From contig SCSU01000073.1 of NCBI GenBank assembly GCA_004299275.1, positions 1-42,660 of the forward strand: 42,660 nucleotides of DNA, read 5' to 3'. Both the position numbers and the translations under genes were made by a program. The notes beneath the pieces were generated by a model. It searched no databases. It was not told the origin of the DNA and was given only the letters and a program-made list of their open reading frames with translations. Source of the stretch: Patescibacteria group bacterium. Its GTDB lineage: Bacteria; Patescibacteriota; Patescibacteriia; 2-12-FULL-57-11. Below, in pieces: positions 6,696-32,690 of the stretch; position 1 is the first letter of the stretch; each line of letters opens with the position of its first letter.

Positions 6696-7222
6696 ATCAG
6701 CGAATAGATTTTTACCGCTTCCACTACGGCTAAGGAAACAACTCCGGCGAGCAGGGCGCCGGCCAAAACATCCGAGGGATAGTGGACGCCGGCCGAGATT
6801 CGCGCCAAGCCGACCAGGACCGCCATGGCCAAAAACAGCGGGCCAAGCGGATGCGCCAAGAGGAGGAAGGTCAGGGCCACCGTAAACCCGATCGTCGTGT
6901 GGTCCGAGGGAAAAGATTTCCAGCGCGGCGGCATCCAGACCAGCGGCTCGAATTTAAGATGGGTAAAAGGCCGTTCGCGGTAAAGTAAAAGCCCCAAAGT
7001 CCAGGAAATGATTTCGGCAATGATAACGGCCGCGACCGCGGTCAAAAAAATGCGGAGCGTCTGGGTAAAATGCGCCGGCCCGCCTTCGGTGAGCGAGGTC
7101 ACGGCAACAAGGAGCAGGAGATAAAAAAGCCAGGTGGCAAAAAATTTAATCAGCGCGTCAAGCGCCGGCGACTTGCCGACGGGTGACCTCATGACACGGA
7201 GAATTTTGAGATCCAGGTCCAT
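6692..7222 (-). CDS. PAP2-superfamily phosphatase
   Basis: 'FPSDHTT' and 'ARISAGVHYPSDVLAG' motifs. Confidence 0.9.
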   Translation of the reverse strand: MDLDLKILRVMRSPVGKSPALDALIKFFATWLFYLLLLVAVTSLTEGGPAHFTQTLRIFLTAVAAVIIAEIISWTLGLLLYRERPFTHLKFEPLVWMPPRWKSFPSDHTTIGFTVALTFLLLAHPLGPLFLAMAVLVGLARISAGVHYPSDVLAGALLAGVVSLAVVEAVKIYSLI

Positions 7223-7266
7223 ATAAATCCCTCCCCCTTGCGGGGACTCCCTTTAGAAAAGGGAGA
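7223..7266. repeat. Dispersed ATAAATCCCTCCCCC...GGGAGA repeat, copy 1
   Basis: Near-identical to 11131-11174 (one indel and one mismatch over the shared core). Confidence 0.88.
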
Positions 7267-7278
7267 ATTTGGCACTTA

Positions 7279-8097
7279 TTAAATTTTCGCCGTCTTGGGC
7301 CGGGCCAAAAATGAAAGGCCGAAGACGGCGGCGGAAACCAAAACGACGGTCGGGCCGGAGGCGGTGTTCGCGTAGTAGGAAATGATGAGGCCGGCGAGGG
7401 AGGAAAAAATTCCGACCAGGGTGGAGACGGCCACGAGACTCCGCATGCTCCAGCCGATATTTTTGGCCGTCGCCGCGGGGATAATCAGGAGCGGCCCGAT
7501 GAGCACCGCGCCGACGAGCCGGATCCCGAGGGCGATGGTCAAAGCCAGAATGACCAAAAAAAGACGGTCCTGAAAACTGACGTTAACGCCCTCCACCCGG
7601 GCCAGGTCGGCGTGAAAAGCGATTTTCGTCCAGACCCGGAAAAAAATCAAAAGCAGGATGACGGTCGCGGCGGTCAGAACGGCAATCAAAATATTGTCCA
7701 AAGCCGAAACGCCGAGAATATCGCCGAAAAGATAACCAAAAAGGTCAACCCGGTAGCCCTTGAGCGCGCCGATGACGATTACGCCGAGCGCGAGGGCGGT
7801 GGAAAAGAAAACACCGATAATCGTATCCAGCGAAAGCGAGCGGCGCTCGCCGAGTTTAGAAATAAGCAGGGCAATCAAGACGGCAAAACCGGCGGCACCC
7901 GCAAGCGGGTGGATACCGAGCAGTAACCCCAGCGCCACGCCGGTAAACGAGGCGTGGGCGATGGCGTCGGAGAAAAAAGACATTTTCCTGACTATCACGA
8001 AAACGCCGAGGTTGGCGGCCAAAATCCCGATTAAAACGCCAGCGATGAGCGCTCGCACAAAAAAGTCGTATTGGAGAAAATCGGGCATAAGATTCAT
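7279..8097 (-). CDS. znuB: Metal (zinc/manganese-type) ABC transporter permease
   Basis: ABC-3 family: 'RKMSFFSDAIAHASFTGVALG', 'RLVGAVLIGPLLIIPAATA'. Confidence 0.88.
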   Translation of the reverse strand: MNLMPDFLQYDFFVRALIAGVLIGILAANLGVFVIVRKMSFFSDAIAHASFTGVALGLLLGIHPLAGAAGFAVLIALLISKLGERRSLSLDTIIGVFFSTALALGVIVIGALKGYRVDLFGYLFGDILGVSALDNILIAVLTAATVILLLIFFRVWTKIAFHADLARVEGVNVSFQDRLFLVILALTIALGIRLVGAVLIGPLLIIPAATAKNIGWSMRSLVAVSTLVGIFSSLAGLIISYYANTASGPTVVLVSAAVFGLSFLARPKTAKI

Positions 8098-8132
8098 TCG
8101 TGAGAATTCGGGTAAATTCGGAGATTTAAGAG
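8093..8132. repeat. ATTCGTGAGAATTCGGGTAAATTCGG repeat, copy 1
   Basis: Close match to 12529-12570; starts at the same distance from a start codon. Confidence 0.75.
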
Positions 8133-8867
8133 CTAACCGTGGTGGCGGTGGTTCCCGCGCTCGCCGGGCGCGTGCAGATAGCGCGCCGGCGTGGCGTACG
8201 CGCGGGAAAGCGTTTCGGCGGTAAGCACCTTGGACGGCGCTCCCTGACAAATCAGCTTGCGGTTGACGCAAACAACTTTGCTGGCGTAGCGGAAGACGAT
8301 ATCCAGGTCGTGTGAGACGAGGAGCACAGTCATATGCCGCTCTTCGGCCAAGCGGTGAATCAAGCCGTAAATCGTTTCTTCCCCCTCAATATCAATGCCT
8401 GAGGCGGGCTCATCAAGCACTAGCAGGGTAGGATTGGCAATCAGGGCATTCGCGATAAGCACGCGCTGGAGTTCGCCGCCGGAGAGCACGCCGATTGGTT
8501 TGTCCACGAGCTTCGCGGCGCCGACATCCTTCAGCGCGTGGGTAATCGCCTCATGCGCTTGCTCATCATGGCGCCAAAAACGATGGCGGACGAGCCGGAG
8601 CAAAAGCAGTTCCTCCACGGTCAGGGGAAAAGAGGGGTCAAAGTCCACTCGCTGGGGAACGTAGCCCGTGGTTGGCGGCTTTTCCCAGAGCACCTCGCCC
8701 GCCGCCGGCGCGAGACCGAGGATGGCGCGAATCAGCGTGGTTTTGCCCGAACCGTTCGGGCCGATAATGGCCACGAGCTCTCCCTGCTCTACCTCAAAAG
8801 ACACTCGCTCCAAAACGCGGGTTTCGCCGTAACGGACGCTCAACTCATGGACTGCGAGGAAAGGCAT
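8133..8867 (-). CDS. znuC: Metal ABC transporter ATP-binding protein
   Basis: Walker A 'GPNGSGKTTL', signature 'LSGGELQRVLIA', Walker B 'LLVLDEPASGID'. Confidence 0.92.
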   Translation of the reverse strand: MPFLAVHELSVRYGETRVLERVSFEVEQGELVAIIGPNGSGKTTLIRAILGLAPAAGEVLWEKPPTTGYVPQRVDFDPSFPLTVEELLLLRLVRHRFWRHDEQAHEAITHALKDVGAAKLVDKPIGVLSGGELQRVLIANALIANPTLLVLDEPASGIDIEGEETIYGLIHRLAEERHMTVLLVSHDLDIVFRYASKVVCVNRKLICQGAPSKVLTAETLSRAYATPARYLHAPGERGNHRHHG

Positions 8868-8880
8868 AAAAGCGGGGGAA

Positions 8881-8913
8881 CGAGATTGGATCTCCAGCGG
8901 AGATCCAATCTCG
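8881..8913. repeat. Palindromic element CGAGATTGGATCTCC-agc-GGAGATCCAATCTCG, intergenic copy
   Basis: 15-bp perfect arms; both arms identical to those of the copy inside queA (24387-24420). Confidence 0.97.
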
Positions 8914-8915
8914 CC

Positions 8916-9815
8916 CTACTCTGAGAGTGCTTCAATCAACGTTTCTAAATTCTTCCGCATAATTAGCTCGTAAGTGTCCGGCAGTAATGGGCCGGTTTCC
9001 GCCGTATCGAGCTGGCGAACCCTGAGCCCGGTTTCTTTGGCCACGGTTTCGAGCACCTTAGGTGAAAATTGCGGCTCGGAGAAAAGCGCCCTGACCTTTT
9101 CGCGACGAATCAAGTCAACGACCCCCGCGAGATATTTAGCCCCGGGTTCTTTACCCGGAAACTCCTCTATCACCGCCCGCTCTATTAACCCGAAACGTTC
9201 GGCAAAGTAACCGAAGGCCGCGTGAAAGGCAATAAAGTCGGTGCGCTTGATTGCCGGCGACTCCAGATAGAAATCATAGTCATCAGCCAATTTCTGTATT
9301 TTTTTGAGGTAAACTTCCGCGTTGCTCTGGTAGCCGGCGGCGTTCTTGGGGTCAGCGGCCGCCAAGCCCGCGGCGATGTTGGCCACCATCATTTGAACTA
9401 AAGTCGGAGAAAGCCAGATGTGCGGGTCGGGCGTTCCTTTGCGGAGACGGACTGGAACCGAAACGCTGGCGTCAATAATTTTGGCCATGGTCCCCGATTC
9501 TTTAATCACTCCCGCCGCCCACGCCTCCGCGCCCAAACCGTTCATCACCAAAACATCGGCGCGGCTGATTTTTTGCACATCGCCGGGAGTAAAAGAGTAC
9601 TCGTGCGGGCCGGCTCCTGGCGGCAGCAAGTTTTCCACCTCCGCTAAGTCGCCGGTAACGTTTTTGGTAAAGACGTAAATCGGGAGAAAGGTCGTCACCA
9701 CCCGGATTTTTTCACCCTTAACGGTTTTTTCTCCGCGGCCGACGAAAAGGAAGGCGGCCAAAACCAAGACAAAAATTGTCGCGAGAAAAAAAATTACTTG
9801 ACGGCGCTGTGGCAT
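8916..9815 (-). CDS. znuA: Metal ABC transporter substrate-binding protein (ZnuA-like)
   Basis: 'VVTTFLPIYVFTKNVTGD', 'GPHEYSFTPGDVQKI', 'DPHIWLSP'. Confidence 0.9.
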   Translation of the reverse strand: MPQRRQVIFFLATIFVLVLAAFLFVGRGEKTVKGEKIRVVTTFLPIYVFTKNVTGDLAEVENLLPPGAGPHEYSFTPGDVQKISRADVLVMNGLGAEAWAAGVIKESGTMAKIIDASVSVPVRLRKGTPDPHIWLSPTLVQMMVANIAAGLAAADPKNAAGYQSNAEVYLKKIQKLADDYDFYLESPAIKRTDFIAFHAAFGYFAERFGLIERAVIEEFPGKEPGAKYLAGVVDLIRREKVRALFSEPQFSPKVLETVAKETGLRVRQLDTAETGPLLPDTYELIMRKNLETLIEALSE

Positions 9816-9816
9816 A

Positions 9817-10854
9817 TTAGTGTCTACGCGATTTTGTTTTGACCCGGCGGCGTCCGCCGTTTTTTTGATGCTGCGCTCCGGTCTCGAGCAGTCCGGCGAC
9901 AGGCACGGCGTGCAGGGCGCAGAAATCATGGTGCGTCGAGAGGTCAAGATAAGCCGAAGTGGCCGCAATCGCCCCTTGGGCCGCACTGGTTACAATCTGC
10001 TTAAAAGAACCGGAAGCGTTCGTCACATCGCCGCAGGCAAAAACGCCGTCCACCGAGGTCTTCATCGTCCGCGGGTCAACATCAATCTGGCCCTGCTTGT
10101 CCAGTTTAACCCCTAACTGCGCCGGGAGCTCACTGCGCGGCACGGCGCCGATGGCCACAAAGACGCCGTCCAAAGCCAGCTCCCGCTCCTTGCCCTTTTT
10201 TACCTTATAGCGCACGGCTTTAAGCGGCGGCCCGCCCACGAACGCGGTTAAAACCGTCTCGAGCAGAACGTTAATGTTTGAATATTTTTTCAGCCGTTCG
10301 CGATTTATCGGCTCGGCGCGGTTCAAGTTCGGCTCGCGCACGAACAAAGTTACCGCGGCCGCTCCCATATCCGAGAGCTGGCTCGCCCATTTGACGGCCG
10401 AGTCCCCGCCGCCGACGACCCCGGCGCGCTTGCCTTTGAACAATGGTCCGTCGCAGGTCGCGCAATAATGGACGCCGCGGCCTTTAAGTTCGCTCTCGCG
10501 GCCGAGTCCGAGCTTCCGGTGTTCCATGCCGGTCGCAAGAATCACCGACTGGCTCTGGTAATTCTCCCTGCCGACCCGCACCTCAAAACAATGAGCGAAA
10601 TTTTTTACGAGCTCCGCTTTTCCGGAGAGCGTCTCGGCGCCGAGGCCAACGGCTTGGTTTTTCATCCGCTGAATCAGTTCAAAGCCGTCAATGCTCAGAA
10701 TGCCCGGATAATTTTCAATCGCTCCGGCCAGCGCCGTCTCCCCGCCCAACTCGCCTTCTACCACCAAAACCGAAAGATTATAGCGTTTGGCGTAAAGCGC
10801 CGCGGCCCAGGCCGCCGCCCCGCCGCCGATGATAATGGTGTCAAAAAATTTCAT
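9817..10854 (-). CDS. trxB: Thioredoxin-disulfide reductase
   Basis: FAD-binding 'IIIGGGAAAWAAALYAKR', redox 'HYCATCDGPLFKGKRAGVVGGGDSA', 'GVFACGDV'. Confidence 0.92.
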   Translation of the reverse strand: MKFFDTIIIGGGAAAWAAALYAKRYNLSVLVVEGELGGETALAGAIENYPGILSIDGFELIQRMKNQAVGLGAETLSGKAELVKNFAHCFEVRVGRENYQSQSVILATGMEHRKLGLGRESELKGRGVHYCATCDGPLFKGKRAGVVGGGDSAVKWASQLSDMGAAAVTLFVREPNLNRAEPINRERLKKYSNINVLLETVLTAFVGGPPLKAVRYKVKKGKERELALDGVFVAIGAVPRSELPAQLGVKLDKQGQIDVDPRTMKTSVDGVFACGDVTNASGSFKQIVTSAAQGAIAATSAYLDLSTHHDFCALHAVPVAGLLETGAQHQKNGGRRRVKTKSRRH

Positions 10855-10932: not shown

Positions 10933-11130
10933 CTTTCCTAAAGGAGGTGGCGAGCTTCGGAGCCGTACTCCGCCATAGCGGCTACGCGACGGCGAGCCGG
11001 AGGATTTTAAAATTTTTCCTTTGCCTATCCTTTATACCCTACCCGCTGCACAGGCCACACGGCCAGTGCAGGCGGGCCCGCCTGTCCTGCGCAAAGCGCT
11101 GGACGGCGGGTCCACTATTCCCTGCTCCCG

Positions 11131-11174
11131 ATAAATCCCTCCCCCTGCGGGGACTCCCTTTAGGAAAGGGAGAG
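11131..11174. repeat. Dispersed ATAAATCCCTCCCCC...GGGAGA repeat, copy 2
   Basis: See 7223-7266. Confidence 0.88.
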
Positions 11175-14159: not shown

Positions 14160-15425
14160 TTAACCAAGCAATTCTTCCTCAATTTCCATCAAGCGGTTGT
14201 ACTTGGCCACGCGTTCGGAGCGCGAGAGCGAACCGGTTTTGATGTAATCAGCGTTTACCGCCACCGCTAAATCGGCAATGGTCGTGTCGCAGGTCTCGCC
14301 CGAGCGATGCGACACCGCCACAGCGTAACCGCTCTTCTGCGCCATCCTGATGGCGTCAATTGTCTCGCTGAGCGTGCCGATTTGATTAACTTTGATAAGA
14401 ATCGCGTTGGCCGCGCCGAGAGCGATGCCTTTTTTAAGCCGCTCCGCCTTAGTCACAAAGAGGTCGTCGCCCACCAGTTTCAACCGGCGGCCGAGCCGTT
14501 TAGTAATTAGCCGCCAATTTTCCCAGTCGTCCTCGGCCAGCGGGTCTTCGAGCGTCATCAGCGGATATTTTTTGGCCCAGCTTTCAAAAAGCCGCACCAG
14601 GTCCCGGGCTTTCCGCGACTGCCCGTCGCGGCGCAAGCGGTAAATTTTATTTTTCGCGTCGTAGAACTCCGTTGCCGCGGCGTCCAGCCCAAGCGCGACC
14701 TCGCGCCCGGGGACATAGCCGGCGGCGCGAATCGCCTTGACGGCAAACTGCAGGGCCTCCTCGTTCCGAGTGAGCCGCGGCGCGTAACCGCCCTCGTCGC
14801 CGACGAGCGTTTGATGGCCGGCTTTTTTAAGCAGTCCGCCCAGAACGTGGAAAATTTCCGCTCCCGCCCGCACCCGCTCGCGGAAAGTTTTTTGCCGCGG
14901 GATAATCAGGCACTCCTGCAGGTCAATAGCCCAGCCAGCGTGGACGCCGCCGTTTAACACGTTCATCATTGGTAATGGCAGAACGTAGGACGTAGAACGT
15001 AGAACGTAGACGCGACGTAGCCAGCGGTAAAGCGGAACGCGCGCCGCGGCGGCGGCGGCGTGAGCTGCGGCGAGCGACACGCCCAAAATCGCATTGGCGC
15101 CCAGCCGCGATTTGTTTGGCGTGCCGTCCTTTTTAATCATCACGGCGTCCAGCTGTCGGAGATCGCGCGCGTCGCGGCCAATAGCTAGTCGGCGCAAAAC
15201 CTTATTGACGTTGGCGACGGCTCGGAGCACTCCCTTGCCGCCGTAACGTTTTTTTTCGCCGTCGCGGAGCTCCAGCGCTTCGTGCGAACCAGTGGAGGCG
15301 CCGGAAGGCACGCTGGCAACACCAATCACGCCGGAACGCAAAGTCACCGCGACTCCCACCGTCGGATTCCCCCGCGAATCCAAAATTTCCCGGGCTTTTA
15401 CTTCCTTAATCCTAAAATCAGCCAT
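14160..15425 (-). CDS. eno: Enolase
   Basis: 'REILDSRGNPTV', 'SGASTGSHEA', 'VGDDLFVTK', 'ILIKVNQIGTLSE', 'SHRSGET'. Confidence 0.97.
   Translation of the reverse strand: MADFRIKEVKAREILDSRGNPTVGVAVTLRSGVIGVASVPSGASTGSHEALELRDGEKKRYGGKGVLRAVANVNKVLRRLAIGRDARDLRQLDAVMIKKDGTPNKSRLGANAILGVSLAAAHAAAAAARVPLYRWLRRVYVLRSTSYVLPLPMMNVLNGGVHAGWAIDLQECLIIPRQKTFRERVRAGAEIFHVLGGLLKKAGHQTLVGDEGGYAPRLTRNEEALQFAVKAIRAAGYVPGREVALGLDAAATEFYDAKNKIYRLRRDGQSRKARDLVRLFESWAKKYPLMTLEDPLAEDDWENWRLITKRLGRRLKLVGDDLFVTKAERLKKGIALGAANAILIKVNQIGTLSETIDAIRMAQKSGYAVAVSHRSGETCDTTIADLAVAVNADYIKTGSLSRSERVAKYNRLMEIEEELLG
14980..15007 (-). repeat. Heptamer array inside eno (sense CTACGTT x2, CTACGTC, CTACGTT-like)
   Basis: Plus strand AGAACGT AGGACGT AGAACGT AGAACGT; encodes YVLRSTSYVL in-frame. 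Confidence 0.9.
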
Positions 15426-24139: not shown

Positions 24140-24163
24140 CTATGTTCTACGTTCTATGTTCTA
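24140..24163. repeat. Heptamer array CTATGTT CTACGTT CTATGTT CTA
   Basis: 24-nt sequence identical to 32666-32689; contains the queA stop codon. Confidence 0.95.
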
Positions 24164-25234
24164 TACAACAAGCATCGCGTCACCGAAAGAATAAAAACGA
24201 TATTTTTTGCGAATCGCGGCGCGGTAAGCGCGCAAAACTTTTTCCCGCCCGGCAAAAGCCGAAACCAGCGCGAGCAGTGTCGACCGCGGCAGATGGAAAT
24301 TGGTGATGAGCGCGTCCACGACACGAAAACGATACCCGGGAGTGATAAAAAGTTTGACCCACCCGCGCCGGGCACGGGACGCGTTTCGAGATTGGATCTC
24401 CCGCAGGAGATCCAATCTCGTCTGGCTTCTGCCATGCGAACCGGGACCCAGCAGTCCCTCCAAAGCGCGCACGGTCGTGGTGCCGACGGCAATCACCCGG
24501 CCGCCGCGCTTTTTTGTTTCGCGAATAACACGGCTGGTCGCTGTCGGAATTTCTCCCCACTCGGCGTGAATCGCATGCTCCGCGAGCCGTTCGGCCCTGA
24601 TCGGTTGGAAAGTTCCGAGCCCCACGTGCAGAGTTACAAAAACTATTTTTACTCCGCGGCGGCGAATCTGCCCGAGCAGTCGCGGCGTAAAATGGAATCC
24701 GGCCGTCGGCGCGGCGACCGAGCCGACCGCGCGGGCATAGACGGTCTGGTACTCCTCGAGCTTCCGCGGCAGGCGTTTGATATACGGCGGCACCGGAATC
24801 TCGCCGATACGGTTAGCCGCGGCTATGACCGGCGCGGGCGGCGCGTTAAAAATAACAGAAAGCGTCCCATCAGAATTTTTCGCGCGGACAATGCCGCGGA
24901 GCGAACGCGAAAAAACTATCGCTCGGCCGCGGGCGAGCTTTTTACCCGGCCGCGCCAGCACGCTCCAAACGCGGCCGCGCGTCGGATGGAGCAAAAAAAT
25001 TTCAACTCTGCCGCGTTCCGTCTGGCCATAGAGGCGCGCTCGAAAAACCTTAGTGTCATTCATAACCAAGACGTCCCCCCGCCGCAAATAATCGGCAATG
25101 TCGCGGAATACCCGATGTTCAATCCGCCCAGTCTGCCGATTGAGCAGCATTAGACGCGAGGAGTCCCGCGGCCGCGCCGAACGCTCGGCAATGCGCCCGG
25201 GCGGCAGATGATAATCCAAGAGCGAAGTCTTCAT
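24161..25234 (-). CDS. queA: S-adenosylmethionine:tRNA ribosyltransferase-isomerase
   Basis: '[22 protein letters not shown]', '[16 protein letters not shown]', '[12 protein letters not shown]', '[16 protein letters not shown]'. Confidence 0.95.
24387..24420 (-). repeat. Palindromic element CGAGATTGGATCTCC-cgca-GGAGATCCAATCTCG inside queA
   Basis: Arms identical to 8881-8913; encodes ~[11 protein letters not shown] in-frame. Confidence 0.97.
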
Positions 25235-25692: not shown

Positions 25693-26760
25693 ATGGACAT
25701 CATTCACGAAATCAATAAACGCCGCGCCCGCGCCGCGGAAGTAGAAAAAGAACTCGCCGCTAACCCCGCCGGTGAGCGGGCGCGCGCGCTCGGCCGCGAA
25801 TACGCCGAGCTGGAAAAAACTCTGCGTCTGGCCGACGAGTTTGACGCGCTGAGCAAAAATTTGGAAGAAACGCGCCGCATCGCCGAGTCCGAAAAGGACC
25901 CAGAGCTCCGAGCTCTGGCCGCGGGCGAACTCCCCGGGCTTAAAGCGCGCCGGGTGGCGCTCGAGGCCGCCATAAACGACGCCTTGAGCCCGCCCGACCC
26001 GTTGGACGAAAAATCAATCATCGTGGAGGTCCGCGCCGGCACCGGCGGCGAGGAGGCGGCGCTCTTCGCCAGCGAACTTTTTCGGCTCTACGCGCGCTTC
26101 GCCGAACGGAAAAAATGGAAAACGACATTAGTTTCGGCTAACCGCACGGATTTGGGCGGCTTTAAAGAAGTGATTTTCGAAATCGCCGGAGAGGGCGCTT
26201 ACCGCGAACTCAAATACGAAAGCGGCGTGCACCGCGTCCAGCGCGTGCCGGCGACGGAAAAGACCGGCCGGGTGCACACTTCCACCGTAACGGTGGCGGT
26301 ACTGCCGGAGGTGGAAGAAGTGGATGTGCGCATTGACCCCAAAGACGTCCGCCTCGACACCATGACCGCCGGCGGCCACGGCGGCCAGAGCGTCAACACC
26401 ACCTACAGCGCCGTCCGCCTCACTCATCTGCCGACGGGACTCGTGGTCTCCTGCCAGGATGAACGCAGTCAGCGCCAAAACCGCGAGCGCGCCTTTCAAA
26501 TTCTGCGGGCGCGATTATTCGCCATGGAAGAGGAAAAACGGCGAACCGAACGAAGAGAGGAACGGCGGGCGCAAATCGGCACCGGCGAACGCGCCGAAAA
26601 AATCCGCACCTATAACTTCCCCCAAGACCGCCTGACTGACCATCGTCTTAAAGAAAGCTGGCACAACCTACCCACAATCATGGACGGCGATATCGCGCCA
26701 ATCGTGTCTGCCCTGCGCCGCGCCGACCGCGAAGGGACGATGGGGCAAGGCGAAGAGTAA
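25693..26760 (+). CDS. prfA: Peptide chain release factor 1
   Basis: '[11 protein letters not shown]', '[26 protein letters not shown]', '[18 protein letters not shown]'. Confidence 0.96.
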
Positions 26761-26806: not shown

Positions 26807-27724
26807 ATGCTTATCCGCGAGGCGCTTTTCGCCGGAACAAAAAAACTTAGCCGGCATCGCGAGGAGTGGAGCTCCAACGCGCTCGACGCCGAGCTCCTCC
26901 TCGCCTTCGCCCTAAAAAAACCGCGCGAATTTCTCTACAGCCATAACGAAAGACCGCTGCCGCCAGCGGCAGCAAAGCGCTACCGCGCGTATCTGGCGCG
27001 GCGGCTCCGCCACGAGCCGGTCGCTTACATCCTTGGCGCGAAAGAATTTTTCGGCCTCAAAATCGAGGTAAAAAAACGCTGCACGCTCATCCCCCGGCCG
27101 GAAACCGAAATTCTCGTCGAAAAAGCGCTTGAGCTGCTAAAATCTCCAAATACCAAATTCCAAATACCAAATTCCAAATACCAAATTATTGATGTTGGCA
27201 CCGGTTCCGGCGCGATTGCCGTCGCTGTCGCCCAAAATATGCCGCAAGTCCGCGTGATTGCGACGGACAACTCCGCCTGCGCCTTAAGAGTCGCCCGCCA
27301 AAACGCCCGCCTGCATGGCGTCGCTTCTCTGGTCAAATTCACCAAGGCCGACATCCTGCAGCCAACCTTATCCCCTATACCCTATTCACTATCCACTATT
27401 CACTACCCCCTATCCCCTTCGCCGCTCATCCTCGCCAACCTCCCCTACGTCCCCACTCGCGAGTGGCAAAAACTCCCGCCGGAAATTCGCCGCTATGAGC
27501 CGCGGGCGGCGCTTGACGGCGGCCGCGACGGCCTCACGCTCTATCGCCGGCTCCTAGCCCAAATCAACCAGCGCAGCATCAAATCATTCACGCTCCTCGC
27601 CGAAATCCATCCCGAACAAAAAACCGCCTTCCGGCGGTTGATCAAAAAATATTGGCCCAAGGCGCAAATTGCTTTCCACCAAGACCTGGCTGGAAAAATC
27701 CGGGTGGTCGAGACTATGGTTTGA
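26807..27724 (+). CDS. prmC: Peptide chain release factor N5-glutamine methyltransferase
   Basis: 'DAELLLAFAL', 'LIPRPETEILVEKAL', 'DVGTGSGAIAVAVA', 'LILANLPYVP' (NPPY variant), directly after prfA. Confidence 0.93.
   Translation: MLIREALFAGTKKLSRHREEWSSNALDAELLLAFALKKPREFLYSHNERPLPPAAAKRYRAYLARRLRHEPVAYILGAKEFFGLKIEVKKRCTLIPRPETEILVEKALELLKSPNTKFQIPNSKYQIIDVGTGSGAIAVAVAQNMPQVRVIATDNSACALRVARQNARLHGVASLVKFTKADILQPTLSPIPYSLSTIHYPLSPSPLILANLPYVPTREWQKLPPEIRRYEPRAALDGGRDGLTLYRRLLAQINQRSIKSFTLLAEIHPEQKTAFRRLIKKYWPKAQIAFHQDLAGKIRVVETMV
27146..27187 (+). repeat. In-frame 6 x 7-nt array (CCAAATA CCAAATT)x3 inside prmC
   Basis: Exactly 42 nt; encodes PNTKFQIPNSKYQI immediately before DVGTGSG. Confidence 0.97.
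27375..27416 (+). repeat. In-frame heptamer array CTATACC CTATTCA CTATCCA CTATTCA CTACCCC CTATCCC inside prmC
   Basis: Six 7-nt units (42 nt) with degenerate flanking units; lies just before LILANLPYVP. Confidence 0.93.
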
Positions 27725-32665: not shown

Positions 32666-32689
32666 CTATGTTCTACGTTCTATGTTCTA
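32666..32689. repeat. Heptamer array CTATGTT CTACGTT CTATGTT CTA
   Basis: Identical 24 nt to 24140-24163; immediately downstream of the stop of CDS 32691-33818. Confidence 0.95.
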
Positions 32690-32690
32690 T

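Follow-up and report, generated by a model that had tools for sequence, protein, structure and literature searches.

Few tandem repeats are expected within conserved enzymes, and those that do occur should have units divisible by three. The window analyzed here, a 42,660-nt stretch of DNA from a Patescibacteria group bacterium (contig SCSU01000073.1, assembly GCA_004299275.1), contradicts this expectation because the gene for the release factor methyltransferase PrmC that it contains carries two tandem arrays of 7-nt units (Table 1). The question raised by this locus is how such arrays come to reside, in frame, in an essential gene, and whether their location next to conserved sequence motifs reflects the way in which they arise or only the sites at which they survive.

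The prmC gene and its two arrays

The defining activity of PrmC is the methylation of the GGQ motif of the release factor RF1. The product of the gene considered here matches the PrmC model with 241 bits (curated cut-off 199, E 1e-71), contains motif I (DVGTGSG, at 129) and NLPY (211-214), as expected of a member of this family, and has the solved structure of HemK (1nv8, E 2.6e-15) as the best fold match of its structural model; the combination of the whole-protein match, the motifs and the fold match identifies it as a predicted PrmC.

Array 2 consists of the units CTATACC, CTATTCA, CTATCCA, CTATTCA, CTACCCC and CTATCCC, with the degenerate units TTATCCC and CTTCGCC at its flanks. These six units, their flanks and their position had been described in a sequence-only reading of the window and agree exactly with the DNA. 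The units are imperfect, and the periodicity extends, also imperfectly, to about 27368-27420 (~50-53 nt); Tandem Repeats Finder reports 27369-27418 with period 7, 7.1 copies and a score of 51. The period-7 score of array 2 is 21, compared to a best score of 12 in 5000 codon shuffles of prmC and of 11 in 200 two-base shuffles of the window, so that, as in the heptanucleotide simple sequence repeats, tandem units of exactly 7 nt are present beyond chance. The encoded peptide, TLSPIPYSLSTIHYPLSPSP, spans residues 187-206, ahead of the LANLPY segment that starts at residue 209, and thus the array indeed lies within prmC and upstream of this motif. The second family is likewise unrelated to the first, given that the CCAAATA and CCAAATT units of array 1 differ from CTATNCM. 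Conversely, the 42-nt core that had been proposed for both arrays is a coincidence, with the length set by where the ends are placed: array length in other prmC genes varies from 22 to 62 nt around a median of 33 nt, only 3 of 46 arrays are in the range of 41-43 nt, and this variation rules out a special 42-nt unit.

Table 1. Coordinates of the genes and heptamer arrays discussed for the window
Feature	Position	Strand	Remarks
Enolase	14160-15425	-	Host gene of the (TCTACGT)4 array
Enolase array (TCTACGT)4	14980-15010	-	Third intragenic array of the window; just before LPxPMMN
Intergenic heptamer array CTATGTTCTACGTTCTATGTTCTAT	24140-24164	+	
prfA	25693-26760		prmC directly downstream
prmC, release factor N5-glutamine methyltransferase (predicted), 305 aa	26807-27724	+	TIGR03534
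Array 1, six alternating CCAAATA/CCAAATT heptamers in prmC	27146-27187	+	Loop ahead of motif I (DVGTGSG) at beta strand 1
Array 2, six CTATNCM heptamers in prmC	27375-27416	+	Beta strand 3/4 loop, 5' of LANLPY
Second intergenic copy of the CTATGTTCTACGTTCTATGTTCTAT array	32666-32690	+	Identical to the first across 25 nt; flanks unrelated

Heptamer arrays in the genome, the class and the phylum

A census that covered 391 kb of the 1.0-Mb genome (73 contigs), the window included, yielded 46 arrays of period 7, at most five of any other period and none in shuffled sequence. Both families found in prmC show the dispersal of a single unit family over many loci that characterizes heptanucleotide repeats: with at most one mismatch, the array 2 family, CTATYCACTATYCA, occurs at 39 sites in the genome and the array 1 family, CCAAATW, at 28 sites, compared to none for the respective reversed controls. 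A heptamer common to at least two arrays of the genome is found in 41 of the 46 arrays (mean of 29 and maximum of 36 for shuffled units). The two identical intergenic arrays of the window have unrelated flanks, which points to apparent copying, from one locus to another, of whole arrays or of the order of their variant units. Within the 391 kb, the arrays are concentrated outside genes, as is typical of heptanucleotide repeats, with 28 in 54 kb of intergenic DNA compared to 18 in 337 kb of ORFs. Exact CTATYCA pairs are present in 7 of 182 genomes of the class, seven in this genome and one or two in each of the six others, and are missing in the three family relatives; the CTATYCA family is nearly genome-specific. 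A search of the genus for close strains returned this genome alone.

Arrays in this genome are also found in the genes for RsmA (three), TsaD (two), enolase, IleRS and ValRS (one each). Of the three RsmA arrays, one immediately precedes motif I and another immediately precedes NLPY, which are the strand-1 and strand-4 positions of PrmC, and those of IleRS and ValRS each lie just ahead of the DRWIL segment. Among 50 ileS genes, 12 arrays were detected, all of period 7 and recurrent near residues 213-216, 349 and 840. The first of the two arrays in the TsaD gene (L204:17862-18968) is 69 nt long and alternates CCAAATA and CCAAATT, like array 1 of prmC.

Within the class, 26 of 111 prmC genes contain period-7 arrays (38 arrays), each other period gives 1-6, and the codon-shuffled genes give 6 in 5550. 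Outside the class, such arrays are present in 9 of 26 prmC genes, and a gene from another class (L264) has a CTATCCA array ahead of strand 1. In the joint alignment, 34 of 136 prmC genes carry 46 arrays, which are located before strand 1 (18), strand 4 (12, including array 2), strand 5 (8), strand 2 (4) and strand 3 (1), with the other three in the N-terminal domain. All arrays mapped to the methyltransferase domain are confined to loops on the N-terminal side of beta strands; the loop 219-225 after NLPY, although length-variable, harbors none of the 46. The 46 arrays have 41 distinct consensus units and therefore do not derive from one inherited insertion. In a single family (f9), the same two loops contain AAGCTCC, AAATTCC/ACTAATT, GCAATCN, AAAATCT or GCCATTT depending on the genome, between flanks that are 64-78% identical at the nucleotide level in the pairs compared. 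The recurrence proposed in the sequence-only reading is thus strongly supported. In homologs from other CPR genomes, these positions do not contain conserved, repeat-free residues; the loops vary, and about one quarter of the homologs carry an array of their own.

The turnover of the arrays can be followed within one genus (g53). Two of its genomes have AAGCTCC elsewhere as well as in prmC, whereas the third has no AAGCTCC family and carries AAATTCC at the same place in prmC. The shared AAGCTCC array shows a single difference in 31 nt compared to 22% divergence between the genes (P about 0.004), which suggests homogenization within arrays or from dispersed copies. In the PrmC of a same-family relative (L065, genome G003), the array 1 loop is the site of a long, heptamer-free insertion, AGPGLPPRARRSTAEWPSGRTRGVDGHGA. 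A scan of genome contigs with PrmC retrieved only two distant loci and, in addition, a false match (L062) produced by the heptamer peptide alone.

Location of the arrays in the PrmC fold

When 275 slots of array-free PrmC sequences are ranked by length variation, 192-207 and 112-121 take the first two places, and 188 and 258 are also among the first five. The main array slots are therefore the most variable slots of array-free PrmC, which lends good support to gene-specific tolerance, one of the two possibilities raised initially, as does the excess of arrays in prmC over other ORFs (see below).

Secondary structure was taken from an AlphaFold2 model built from a three-sequence alignment (pTM 0.67; the single-sequence model had a pLDDT of 40), to the depth of which scans of viral contigs contributed one relative. 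The model includes a helix at 98-112, a loop and a strand at 125-130 in the region of array 1; a strand at 176-180, a loop at 181-206 and a strand at 207-210 in the region of array 2; and a helix at 241-255 followed by a loop and a strand at 262-266. The pLDDT is below 50 for array residues 119-123 and 184-202. Taken together, alignment and structure prediction place both arrays in probable loops, modeled with low confidence, ahead of strands. A sequence search of solved structures retrieved HemK/PrmC of Thermotoga and E. coli, with gaps at both array positions in the alignments listed.

Class I methyltransferases bind both cofactor and substrate at the strand ends opposite to the loops that lead into the strands. 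Accordingly, the description of the arrays as adjacent to catalytic motifs holds for the sequence but not for the fold, in which secondary structure and the known topology put them on the sheet edge that faces away from the motifs. The adjacency in sequence arises because the array-bearing loops precede strands whose far ends bear the motifs, and judging from the predicted secondary structure and class I topology, the nearness to catalytic motifs is likely to be incidental. The catalytic motif itself as the target of insertion was rejected given that strands 2, 3 and 5 have arrays ahead of them too and that unrelated enzymes contain arrays. Loops with arrays are ~3-5 residues longer than array-free loops, whereas an array encodes ~11 residues (median 33 nt), and hence simple insertion does not fully account for the arrays.

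Origin and retention of the arrays

Array 2 is one of many heptanucleotide arrays in this genome; it probably became part of prmC and has been maintained, without loss of the reading frame, as a flexible loop at the protein surface. The arrays would be created and homogenized by 7-nt slippage and/or by copying between loci of one genome, selection would remove insertions elsewhere in essential genes, and the frame constraint, under which only changes of 21 nt would be allowed, would freeze the number of units; arrays would thus spread within each genome, but permissive loops would be the only places where they persist in frame. A benefit to PrmC is unnecessary for this explanation, and in-frame heptamer arrays are apparently harmless to the host enzymes. 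Array 2 is a local case of a phylum-wide pattern, namely in-frame heptamers in permissive loops of essential enzymes. The arrays mark where the enzymes of reduced genomes tolerate foreign sequence and provide a natural series of loop replacements.

Among the alternatives, the one that fares best holds that the loops are targets, such that the site preference of mobile arrays, repair synthesis or selection for disordered linkers places or keeps arrays there beyond neutral tolerance. In 80 loci of the class, prmC was compared to other ORFs and to neighboring intergenic DNA: prmC contains 16 arrays in 69.5 kb, 29 times the density in other ORFs (4 in 500 kb, two of the four in release-factor genes of the PCRF/RF-1 kind), and the prmC loops, with 1.3 arrays per kb, exceed about 19-fold the neighboring intergenic DNA (6 in 88 kb, 0.068 per kb), although in a compact genome the intergenic DNA around prmC hardly serves as a neutral reference. 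A loop density above the neutral rate means that neutral tolerance alone may not suffice and that retention by frame-locking, selection for flexible loops or targeting is to be added. Frame-locking, whereby only 21-nt steps survive, could allow arrays in coding sequence to outlast those between genes. The presence of arrays in the same two loops in several genomes of one family, each with its own unit, is also compatible with targeting. However, the main slots are the most variable ones in array-free genes too, arrays are scattered over enolase, IleRS, ValRS, TsaD, RsmA and the DNA between genes, and the array-rich genome itself is denser in intergenic than in genic arrays, so that targeting appears unlikely. 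Rather doubtful as well is an activity that would write or rewrite DNA seven nucleotides at a time and that would operate, or be retained, mainly in exposed loops of essential proteins, where genome-specific heptamers would replace loop sequence faster than neutral drift; if real, it would continually generate new loop sequence. A density surplus over intergenic DNA, if genome-wide, would require a mechanism beyond slippage and tolerance.

The possibility that the heptamers ride larger interspersed elements, and were carried into prmC in this manner, was considered in view of a palindromic element (beginning GATAAATCCCTCCCCCTGCGGG...CTCCCTTT...AAAGGGAG) that is found at 11130-11141 of the window and at 22 other places in the genome, often directly 3' of CTATYCM arrays; its core, GATAAATCCCTC, matches 23 genome sites with at most one mismatch, and the element has CTATYCM arrays immediately upstream at several intergenic sites. 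Furthermore, the ileS gene of another genome (L311, genome G028) contains, in the loop that accommodates heptamers in the IleRS of the present genome, an in-frame sequence, PPRSPFDKGEEGVVSPSLVKGRVGVGF, that is apparently a translated interspersed repeat of another type. Carriage by such elements is nevertheless improbable because the prmC, ileS, rsmA and valS arrays have no neighboring element and identical arrays have unrelated flanks.

A role of array 2 as a contingency (phase-variation) switch, in which gain or loss of 7-nt units would toggle PrmC, is suggested by the fact that any change by a single unit shifts the frame, 7 not being a multiple of 3. This role is very improbable and was rejected: imperfect units lower slippage, a modifier of release factors is a poor target for a switch, and the prmC arrays examined are all in open frames. 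In 12 of the 46 prmC arrays, the consensus unit implies a stop codon in any 21-nt stretch and the frame is nonetheless open, from which it follows that variant units sit at the would-be stops, as expected if read-through is required. An assembly artefact, conceivable in a fragmented assembly, or a low-complexity peptide bias with no cause at the DNA level is hardly credible, and the former was rejected, given the recurrence in many independent genomes, a period that is not a multiple of the codon and the failure of codon shuffles to reproduce the signal.

Heptanucleotide repeats themselves are already known, and the STRRs of cyanobacteria are among them; the present case stands out in that essential enzymes repeatedly accommodate 7-nt arrays, in frame and with units particular to nearly every genome, in the same loops. 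Other known cases are GGGAATC/GGGGAYT in Xanthomonas and Nostoc (PMC4692102) and, in the account given in PMC4679880, the TAACTGA repeats of Beggiatoaceae. As quoted in the latter source, heptanucleotides are the most common long unit in most genomes (Mrazek et al., 2007), and a polymerase contact length of 7 nt has been suggested by Mrazek and colleagues. The present arrays share with the prokaryotic heptanucleotide repeats the 7-nt unit, imperfect tandem copies, dispersal over many loci and intergenic over-representation. In these reports, however, the repeats described are mainly intergenic, and genic repeats are thought to be mostly multiples of three, unlike the in-frame 7-nt arrays with near genome-specific units that occupy the same essential-enzyme loops phylum-wide, and unlike the prmC genes of the relatives, where the local intergenic density is exceeded. 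The arrays bear on the problem of why 7 nt is the favored step of bacterial repeats.

The Rickettsia palindromic elements are dispersed repeats that reside in frame in unrelated essential genes and are tolerated at the protein surface. In-frame insertion at tolerant sites of unrelated genes is common to these elements and the present arrays, but the former are palindromes of one family each, whereas the latter are tandem heptamers with nearly as many units as there are prmC arrays (41 in 46). The phrase "selfish DNA in protein-coding genes" occurs in PMC3767692 and in other papers. The tandem repeats of Borgs resemble the present arrays in being rapidly evolving, genome-specific, located both in and between genes and associated with disordered segments, but the Borg units inside ORFs are divisible by three and mostly perfect (PMC9879509), in contrast to the imperfect 7-nt units described here. 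The constant-size tandem repeats of Bacillus similarly combine a fixed unit size with variable sequence and several families per genome, with units of 52 or 20-21 nt rather than 7 nt (PMC8161180). The open-licence literature yielded no account of heptamers inside CPR/Patescibacteria genes.

A riboflavin synthase-like gene (L212:3704-4303) ends in a CTATYCM array in antisense orientation, which provides its final codons and its TAG stop; this is as expected, given that antisense CTATYCM holds TAG in every frame. Three neighboring large ORFs of contig C70 (L215:5317-6693, 6812-8107 and 8151-9920), with no match in Pfam, have hydrophobic, signal-peptide-like N-termini that are largely encoded by arrays of GCGATTW, GCCATTC and TTTCGTA heptamers (e.g., FAISALLFAISVLLFATPALA), and putative secretion signals of these ORFs may thus be supplied by repeat DNA.
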